DNA of 64,000 nucleotides, taken from NCBI GenBank assembly GCA_032622095.1, contig CP136067.1, forward strand, positions 94,602,707 through 94,666,706, given 5' to 3'. The translations under genes were made by a program, and so were the position numbers. The notes under the pieces are model-generated. The model searched no databases. It was not told the DNA's origin and worked only from the letters and a program-made list of their open reading frames with translations. Positions within the stretch are counted from its first letter, which is position 1, and every line of letters starts with the position of its first letter. Origin of the DNA: Siphonodentalium dalli. Its lineage: Eukaryota; Mollusca; Scaphopoda; Gadilida; Siphonodentaliidae. Positions 1 through 62,900 of this stretch are shown in pieces.

Positions 1-424
1 TCGCAGTCCAAAATCGATCAAAAAATGAAAATAGGTAATGCAAAAATAAATCACCCAGTGTTCACATTCAGTGACTGATAAATAATTGACTATATTGACC
101 AAAATCACTCTAATCGATCTAATTATATCTCACAATCAAAACAAATGAATTTCACACACTAGAAGTCCTTTTATTGACAAACTTAGAACACATACTTCCT
201 CAAAACGAAATCAATTCAAAACTGAATTCACTCCCTTTGTGCTATCTATTTATAACTTTGGGAATTCCAGTATAATGAGTGTGTACTTGTTGACGCTTTT
301 TGCTTCAATTAGAATAGATTTTTGTAATTAGAATAGATTGAACTAATACCGGTTTGAGATAGGTAGGCCAGGAATTTATTGTGTGTGTGTGGGGAGGTAT
401 AATTAGATTAGACTGAATTAATAC
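1..424 (-). other. JMJD6 intron, 3' end of the visible gene
   Basis: This stretch is AT-rich. It holds one decayed copy of the exon end/donor block (328-401) and a short GT run near 381-392. No further JMJD6 exon is seen, so the rest of the gene is beyond base 1. Confidence 0.6.
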
Positions 425-572
425 CGGTTTGAGATCAGCAGGCCAGGACGGAGATTGAGTTCGTGGGTAGACATATCTGAACCAGCACACAGCCTCATCC
501 CGCTGTTTACCACCATCTCGAGGTTGGGGCTTAACCAGGTCCTTTGCTGCATGCGTTGGAATTAAGCACCAT
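425..572 (-). CDS. JMJD6: JMJD6 exon, RWCL...YPRTQ
   Basis: It starts after TGCATTCAG and completes the arginine codon of KRW. It encodes [44 protein letters not shown]. The donor is placed at AAACCG|GTATTA in phase 0, just before where the family continues with the GGWWH block. The end of this exon and its donor are repeated at 328-401. The next exon is outside the window. Confidence 0.88.
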
Positions 573-59900: not shown

Positions 59901-62900
59901 TGACAAGTGCGACAGTGGTCATGTGACAGCTACAATCGCGCGCGTTGCCAAGGTCACGCCACGATTTTCCTGGTAAAATAAAACTGCTTGATTGCTACGA
60001 TTTGGCTACGATATTGTCGTGGGCATGCGCATTGGATGCTTCCTCCTGCGATTTCCCCCACTTACGATTTTAATCGCAGCGTGTGCGGTGGCACTAAAAT
60101 GCCACCGGTCAAATAAAGCCACCTTATTCGGTGGACATGTGACCTAGCGGCCTTTCAATTTTACTGAATATTTTGTTACTTTTGTAGAATGCATTCTTCG
60201 GTGAAGAAATGATAACAAAGAGTAGAGACGGGAAGCATAAATTATCTGATGACTCGGACTCCGAACCTGAGGAGTTTGATCCCGCTAGTCTGTATACAGT
60301 ACAGAGCAAGAAGAATTCAGAAATCTCTCTACCTGCGGACTGGGTTCCGAAGCCACCTCCACTGAAAATCGATAGACCTTCAGATGAGAAGAAAGAAACA
60401 AAAGACCTCTCGGACAGTGATCAGAATGAAGACATACAAAACATAGGTATGTATTGGGCACAAGTCTGAGTTTAGTGTGTCTGACATTTACAGAATGAGG
60501 TGCCCAGAGGGGGAATTTAGTGACGCTGTCCCGCACAGTTGTTTAGCGTCGCCAAATTCACCCTACGTGCACCTCATTCTGCTTAGGCCTTAACTTCTAT
60601 GGGAGCCCTAGGATCAGATTGAGTTTCCCCAGTTGAAGTTGGTGATGTTCACCCATTATTAGTCGCCTTGATTATGCATTTTATCTTCTGCAAATTATAG
60701 GATATAGAAACTTCTCAGAATGGAAAAAGTTAACTAAAACAATGTTAATTTGGGACTATAGATATTTCCCAGAAGATGAGGCCGAAACAGAATAAGGGGG
60801 TGAAATTGGTGTCAATTGGAATGGCACATTGAGATGTCCCTCAACTCAGATCAAGCTTGAACATCTTGGACAGTGTACAAAATGAAGATATACAAATATA
60901 GCTATACACACTATTATGTTGTAAAATATTGAAGTTGTTTAGCAATATTTAATCAATACAGGTCCCAATGTTTGAGCTGTCGGCTCCAAGTTGACTAAGT
61001 TATCATTTATAATAATGGGGCGTGAGTGATACATGTGGTTTGTTTTTATATCTTTTTGTGATTAATAAGTCATTTGTGGTGCTAAATAGAGTTTAAAAAG
61101 TTGGAATATATATTATTTAGGTGAGATAAGTTTTTGCTTCTCTATAGTATATTGTGATTCCAGATATGACAATATTTGACAGCGACATATCACTGGGAAA
61201 AGTCGTTAATACATTAATGTTTTTATAATTCTTTGGTACCTTCCAGATGAGGGTGATTTGAAGGGACTGTTCCCAAGTGACCTTCACGATGATGAAGAGC
61301 TCTTCAACATAATGGGCGACGACTTTGTCAAGGAATCTGAAGGTACTCTTCATAACTCATCCCTTTTTATGCACCCGTTTTTAAAAAACTGAATGGAATG
61401 AAATTGCTATGTGAGTTTATTAGCCCAAATACAGGTCTTTTTCGAATTTGTGTTCCGCTCGCCAATTTTCCCAGAGTTATGGCCCTTTGTTGGAATTACC
61501 ACAGGCGTATTTAGCCATGCCCTGACGTTGCTCTTGTTAATATCTAAATATGTTAACAATGCTTGCATGTTGAAGGTGTGATAACAGCCAAGAGCTTGCA
61601 TAATTTAAACCATGAAGCATATTTAATTGACGAAACTTAAGAGTTGAAGCGTTCACTTGTGGCACTGTCAATGCAGCAATATGTGTTGCCATCTGGCAGT
61701 GGACTATTAAGTTTCCTCACAATCCTGGTTTAGTTGGATTTAGTCAATTGTGACAGTCGAGTTGTACGTTTTTCAGATATTATGCCAAATTGTGACCCTT
61801 GAGCAAGGTCACTTGTACTGTGCTTGATTTGTCGTACGTGGATGTGCCGTGTTTGGTAAATGTAAGCCGCTTTAGTGAAGCACCTGTATGATACTGGGGT
61901 AATAGTTTGATTGTTACAGTACTTCTTTGCTTTAGATAAGCTCTATATAAAAAAGTCACCATTATCGCTATTTAACCCTTTCTATACTAAATGGATTCTT
62001 CCACTCAATTATAAAAGTATAAATTGGATTGATCTATTATTCAATTGGAGGGATGTAAAGGATATATGAACAGACAACAGCATGACAAAAATGATAATAC
62101 AAGTGTGCAGAAGAATTCATATTCATTGGTGGGAAATGTTAGATAATAGTCATTTGTTAAAGTTATTATCTAAACATTTCCTACGGGGACTACTCATCAA
62201 TGAGTATTTAGTATAGAAAGGGTTAATTGTTTGCTAATAATGGATGCTTCATATGGTTTGAAAAGAGTCACCCATGTTTGTGATTTAATAACTTATTTTG
62301 ACTTTCTGCAGATTAATGCACAGATATTTTTACAATATCAAGAACAAAAAAACTAACAAAGCATCTTATTCGTTTGTCTCAATATGGACATTGAAACCAT
62401 TCCTCATGTATTTTTCAGATTTGGACATTGAAACGAAACCATTCCTCATGTATTTTTCAGATTTGGACATTGAACCGAAACCATTCCTCATGTATTTTTC
62501 AGATTTGGACATTGAACTGAAACCATTTCTCATGTATTTTTCAGTTTTGGACATTGAACCCAAACCATTCCTCATGTATTTTTCAGATTTGGACATTGAA
62601 CCGAAACCATTCCTCATGTATTTTTCAGATTTGGACATTGAACCCAAACCTTTCCTCATGTATTTTTTAGATTTGGACATTGAACCCAAACCATTCCTCA
62701 TGTATTTTTTTAGATTTGGACATTGATGATGATGATACAATGGATGCTATTGAAGAAATGTCGGGTGATGGATCAGAGAAGAAAGAATATTTACCAGATA
62801 ATCTTGACAACATTCTCGATGTCGACAAAAATTTAAATGTGGAAGCAATCCTGTCTGAAGGTATTTACCTGCCATGATAGGGAGAGGGCGCAGGAACATT

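Follow-up and report, generated by a model that had tools for sequence, protein, structure and literature searches.

Tandem duplications spanning 5' splice sites in two window genes and two gene families of Siphonodentalium dalli

Minisatellites are arrays of short units that lie head to tail, vary in copy number and contain decaying copies. The arrays described here resemble them in unit length, order, variation in copy number and decay of copies, since units of about 10-100 bp and of local origin are repeated in them head to tail, and their formation works like ordinary minisatellite formation. The difference is one of placement, because founder units here fall on donors at about 4 (independent sample, corrected) to 7.5 times (window) the rate of intron positions. 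In a described route of intron gain, the tandem genomic duplication of an AGGT-bearing exon segment gives rise to a new intron, and there too extra splice-site copies come to lie beside the original (PMC3443670; PMC2891723). In that system, however, an exonic segment becomes a new intron, whereas here the unit straddles an existing border and its copies lie in an existing intron; the units are made up of an exon end plus the start of that intron, and the reading frame needs only the original junction, so that the arrays fall outside the definition of intron gain. Dual-specific splice sites also lie inside tandem repeats, in tandem-repeat genes such as UBC, and in human genes of this class introns with such sites are reported to be enriched 8.4-fold (PMC10809524). 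In those genes the coding unit itself is repeated and one site serves as both donor and acceptor, whereas here single-copy exon ends of ordinary genes seed the repeat, and the coding sequence passes through a single copy at each modelled junction. Finally, small tandem duplications arise from fill-in synthesis at break ends and end joining after induced breaks in human and mouse cells (PMC8355091). Such events would be a plausible source of the first duplicate here, although placement at donor sites is not part of that mechanism, and the present duplications are known from assembled sequence alone. No description of an excess of tandem duplications at splice junctions was found among the literature matches listed, as judged by their titles and the beginnings of their abstracts and with subscription papers mostly outside the scope.

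The window, that is, the whole stretch of 64,000 nucleotides analysed, corresponds to C7:94602707-94666706 in a 9-contig assembly of 2.23 Gb. The results concern the genes of this window and two gene families of the same assembly, with exon borders predicted from DNA. On the forward strand, a KMT2C/D-type gene was modelled at 29875-62860 as 29 exons (K1-K29), the model being open at both ends. All 29 exons have AG|GT borders and give, when joined, one frame without a stop; the PHD region matches human KMT2C/D structures, and the two best-scoring named relatives are from gastropods, with 48% and 51% identity over about 60-65% of the query. K1 may begin further upstream, at 29780-29874, where the end of a dispersed palindromic element would provide an acceptor (TTACAG|GCACAC); the frame of such a start would agree with that of the candidate exon 26863-26909. 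On the reverse strand, five exons of JMJD6 (J1-J5), incomplete at both ends, were modelled at 425-7827 and aligned with 11 animal and metagenome JMJD6 proteins, and the modelled 236 residues show 61-71% identity to at least 120 relatives across many animal groups among the matches listed.

The original prediction held that at 14 borders of these two genes the sequence spanning the splice site is duplicated into the intron. It gave no coordinates for single exons; we took its KMT2 exon numbers to be the K numbers plus 2 and its three JMJD6 borders to be J3, J4 and J5. Ten of the 14 borders hold. At six KMT2 borders (its exons 5, 6, 11, 16, 17 and 31) direct repeats cross the border on the intron side, namely, at the 3' splice site of K3 (exon start 32596; units of about 47-62 bp, at least 5 copies; 32293-32626), at the 5' splice sites of K4 (exon end 34741; about 53 bp, 3 copies; 34719-34882), K9 (exon end 39980; 37 bp, 5-6 copies; 39963-40178), K14 (exon end 45006; periods of about 49-139 bp, 5-6 copies; 44953-45431) and K15 (exon end 45640; about 36 bp, about 5 copies; 45620-45804), and at the 3' splice site of K29 (exon start 62714; 42 bp, 8 copies; 62392-62726), all on the forward strand. 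On the reverse strand, two-copy direct repeats cross the JMJD6 borders in the same direction at the 5' splice site of J5 (exon end 425; spacing 75 bp; 325-448), the 3' splice site of J4 (exon start 1005; spacing 73-75 bp; 961-1101) and the 5' splice site of J3 (exon end 2921; spacing 55-57 bp; 2867-2963), where the gapped alignment crosses the border and the ungapped segment stops at it. The tenth border is the 5' splice site of K27 (predicted exon 29; exon end 60446, forward strand), whose decayed copy at 60861-60905 lies beyond a dispersed element that recurs in the window (60473-60585) and itself scores 53, whereas none of 202 comparisons with other introns gave more than 30. A further border absent from the prediction, the 5' splice site of K11 (exon end 42136, forward strand), has a decayed duplicate at 91 bp (42096-42245). 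As predicted, the copies extend to the intron side at every confirmed border; copy number per site in the window ranges from 2 to about 8 and best-segment identity from 75% to 95%.

The other four borders, likewise on the forward strand, fared less well. The possible two-copy duplicate at the 3' splice site of K17 (predicted exon 19; exon start 47576; 47519-47600) scores 23-24, which is near chance level, the chance expectation over 65 probes being about 0.6 hits at a score of 24 and 1.4 at a score of 22. For predicted exon 2 the array itself is present, as three copies of 79 bp at 26938-27189, and its link to a donor is uncertain: it starts 29 bp after the candidate exon end (26909), and the alignment takes in no more than the first bases of the intron, with a raw score of 33. 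At predicted exons 12 and 21 the duplications, as aligned, consist of exon sequence and leave out the border, one being a copy of an internal piece of K10 (source 40788-40833) just upstream of that exon (40698-40742) and the other a copy of part of K19 that lies in the next intron (50592-50689), about 0.98 kb away from its source.

Ten of the 65 junction probes matched their own intron at a score of at least 28, whereas 0.06 such matches were expected, as judged by matching these probes against every other intron (2 of 2080 comparisons). When any local repeat was counted, plain coverage revealed no excess in the window, with 11 of 68 junctions covered versus 11% of 4000 sampled intron positions. 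This result favours an explanation by chance overlap, in which a minisatellite-rich genome has its borders hit in proportion and the window is special because it was picked as extreme. Nevertheless, junction-born arrays themselves fill introns, and therefore an excess is visible only when founding events or founder units are counted. Counted in this way over both window genes, 9 of 18 unmasked events span a junction versus 2.1 expected (P = 6e-5), and stricter cut-offs gave 9 of 17 (P = 3e-5) and 7 of 15 (P = 6e-4); J3 does not count among the nine, since its ungapped segment goes no further than the border. A second masking rule dropped an event if at least half of its intron bases lay in repeats shared with at least 3 other places in about 0.3 Mb. 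Under this rule, which left out 12 window events in dispersed repeats, 6 donors were found in 14 events (0.93 expected, P = 1.6e-4), together with 3 acceptors (P = 0.06). The founder-unit test compares the share of splice sites inside the first unit of an array (for donors) or inside its last one (for acceptors) with that of intron positions; it gave 7 of 34 window donors versus 2.73% of 24679 intron positions (P = 3e-5), or 8 with the decayed K27 copy, and 4 of 34 window acceptors (K3, K10, K29 and J4) versus 3.3% (P = 0.026), the binomial tests assuming independent events and uniform placement of founder units. Three window events reach a best-segment identity of 93%, none of them on a donor, and the window excess hence rests on older arrays.

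Because the window had been picked as striking, an independent sample was needed, and myosin and kinesin exons of the same genome were used, the families having been picked before looking. Family searches of the genome gave 85 myosin-head and 123 kinesin matches, from which 30 loci each were cut out; 26 further kinesin stretches brought the sample to 86 loci, with 86 exons called (2 loci failed and 2 gave 2 exons), and removal of 14 loci as paralogs or overlaps left 72 exons, still including some paralogs. A third family, dynein, has 96 matches in the genome, and the sample was drawn from the first two families. Exon ends were called with a matrix trained on the window, and three were corrected by eye. 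Inspection of the sequence revealed that the automatic donor at locus L084 was the second copy, that the one at L015 lay too far downstream, and that L091, earlier classed as an exon piece, is a donor duplication. That three automatic exon ends were wrong at such arrays is a warning for annotation.

Local repeats are abundant in the sample introns (141 events over 86 loci before masking), as chance overlap would have it. After removal of 65 events in dispersed repeats, 61 were left, of which 7 span a donor (1.73 expected, P = 0.0017) and 1 spans an acceptor, 2 more being set aside as exon pieces; with L091 moved, the donor count becomes 8 of 62 (P = 0.0003). Locus L078 holds four donor copies at a spacing of 195 bp, the first one 599 bp downstream of the donor, and this displaced array was kept out of the donor event tests and included in the comparison of donors with acceptors. 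By the founder-unit test, 8 of 72 sample donors were scored with the three exon ends corrected by hand versus 2.86% of 141823 intron positions (P = 0.001), a figure that leans towards the hot-spot reading discussed below, since correction was made only at array-bearing loci; the automatic ends gave 5 of 72 (P = 0.055). The same test showed no excess for sample acceptors, with 1 of 72 (L059, a weak 231-bp match) versus 3.1%. Of the young events, those with a best segment at least 93% identical, 7 of 21 lie on donors versus 0.47 expected, and none of the seven needs the L091 correction.

These data bear on chance overlap from both sides. The first 58 sample exons alone gave only about three donor cases, the uncorrected founder-unit test is borderline, and the sample (8 of 72 donors, 9 with L078) is poorer in donor arrays than the window (7 of 34, 8 with K27), the last being expected for a window picked as striking. 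Against chance overlap stand the event count in families chosen before looking and the share of donors among the young events, and on balance we regard it as unlikely, although far from negligible. The original prediction of a genome-wide process is thus partly supported for donors, with donor-spanning arrays in about seven other genes by position (eight sample donor events, two of which, L048 and L093, lie 12 kb apart) and an excess by event counting in a small sample, and it is not supported for acceptors. In the same way, the expected excess of repeats at junctions over intron positions appears for donors when events are counted in the sample of 72 exons and is missing from plain coverage in the window.

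The exon half of a unit is under constraint, as is generally the case for coding sequence, and this could favour an explanation by detection bias, in which the constrained exon copy keeps old duplicates visible for longer. The excess is stronger, not weaker, among the young sample events, however, which indicates that it is not a by-product of slow exon decay. Most donor arrays of the sample are near-identical and therefore recent, L048 consisting of two identical 31-bp copies and L071 (near C4:258.50M), L088 (near C6:2.146M) and L093 (near C9:37.36M) differing at few bases; the L084 array also belongs to the young ones. Near-identical copies might alternatively be products of misassembly, but individual copies have substitutions of their own, an inserted element separates one copy from its source, and the same 67-bp duplication is found in two myosin paralogs at a distance of 2.8 Mb from each other. 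Biased detection and misassembly are accordingly given very little weight. In agreement with the prediction that copy age spans near-identical to decayed, the series runs from the identical 31-bp copies of the sample down to the decayed K11 and K27 copies of the window.

Over 106 exons, donor events outnumber acceptor events by 16 (with the displaced L078 array) to 4 (Fisher P = 0.008); the sample alone gave 9 of 72 versus 1 of 72 (P = 0.017), and in the window alone the difference was not significant (8 of 34 versus 4 of 34, P = 0.34). The original idea therefore stands in part, with the duplication excess mainly at 5' splice sites: statistics on a small sample support the conclusion that donors exceed intron positions and acceptors do not. 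Both kinds of site are affected in the window, as had been claimed, yet acceptors show only a marginal excess there and none in the sample. As to the direction of copying, the 12 aligned sequences show conservation of the JMJD6 residues that the units encode, which lie around PPYR|WFVMG and close to the SWPADLKP end, and the end of K9 is a conserved PHD stretch. Conservation of these residues in other animals means that the copying went from exon to intron, and recruitment of exon ends from pre-existing intron arrays is ruled out at least for JMJD6 and K9. The donor motif alone was also rejected as a cause, since a 9-mer with a donor score of at least 6 occurs in 10 of 58 intron-only units (17%) versus 14% of control segments; at a score of at least 8 the values were 5 of 58 (9%) versus 4%, with no clear enrichment, and one of the five is L078, itself a holder of donor copies.

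Judged from the predicted reading frame, it appears to be the first copy that agrees with the protein in all eight donor arrays of the sample. Use of the next donor copy is predicted to bring a stop in 4 of the 8 and a frameshift in 3, with only L084 (+30 bp) staying in frame, which is in keeping with use of the first donor; in the window, use of the next copy at K15 (+72 bp) is likewise predicted to be in frame.

Copies that span a junction, lie on its intron side and range from identical to decayed are present in the window and in other genes. We consider it somewhat more probable than its negation (roughly 0.55) that small tandem duplications are common in the genes of this species, are several-fold more frequent at the exon end and 5' splice site than elsewhere in introns, and persist through use of the upstream donor. 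A unit of about 30-95 bp would start as a single end-joining or fill-in duplication, which slippage or unequal exchange would in some cases later expand to 3-15 copies. The copies would survive because transcription reaches the original donor, the most upstream one, before the others and splicing continues to use it, which leaves them inside the intron. A decoy acceptor, on the other hand, lies upstream of the true one, would be met first and would more often be harmful, which would explain the rarity of acceptor events. As triggers at exon ends, stalled transcription, RNA-DNA hybrids or exon chromatin may be guessed at.

Persistence could also be due to selection, if extra donor copies bind U1 snRNP and thereby support weak donors or shield long introns, so that donor arrays are kept and other arrays disappear. 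In the copies, donor 9-mers are mismatched at 12 of 209 sites versus 203 of 1910 elsewhere (P = 0.029, from rough alignments with overlapping units), and array donors in the sample are weaker than the others (median score 6.1, n = 9, versus 8.5, n = 59; P = 0.031). In contrast, array donors in the window are not weaker (9.1 versus 9.2, P = 0.95), the copies in acceptor arrays show no sparing of the splice site (19 of 130 sites versus 110 of 883), and several arrays are too young to have been shaped by selection. With support thus mixed, selection for extra donor copies seems improbable as the main cause.

Small duplications that favour exon ends and persist through upstream donor use could be one face of a broader process, in which 5' splice sites would be a genome-wide tandem-duplication hot spot of this lineage, with transcription- or splicing-linked breakage or re-copying at exon ends, about one donor in ten carrying duplicate donors, and introns continually fed with exon ends and decoy splice sites. 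This extension is tentative, and we rather doubt it at present. If it were true, alternative donors, extended exons and new introns would draw their raw material from a directed mutation bias and not from random duplication.

Several repeats were observed beside these arrays. At K29, one frame is open from stop to stop over 62292-62726 (144 codons), and the 42-bp unit is divisible by three, so that use of acceptor copies further upstream could insert a repeat of 14 residues without shifting the frame. In KMT2 intron 15, a 37-bp array of seven copies (46030-46290) has no junction inside, though its unit holds the acceptor-like TTTTTATTCAG. A palindromic dispersed element beginning GCAGAATGAGGTCCCCAGAGGGTGAATTT is found at 6787-6878, 29416-29519, 32806-32898, 41663-41855, 63640-63830 and other positions, and also in sampled loci; a second palindromic family begins GCCAATGCATTCTCTTATATATGCGAG. 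Viral and prokaryotic contigs searched for repeats of this genome gave no match. Two arrays of the 15-bp unit TGGGTATGTATAGTG lie about 3 kb apart (12625-12828 and 15539-15828), and an open frame at 18822-19103 on the reverse strand shows a possible resemblance to the zinc-binding end of a retrotransposon reverse transcriptase.

Among the sampled loci, L084 (positions 1-1210, near C7:209.49M) contains a 37-bp array of about 33 copies that ends at the acceptor of a kinesin exon, in addition to its donor array of about 15 copies. The closely related myosin genes at C4:274.2-275.5M (L020, L024, L026-L030 and L032-L035) have in common a 44-bp array upstream of one exon, and the members of this cluster could be used to date array growth.
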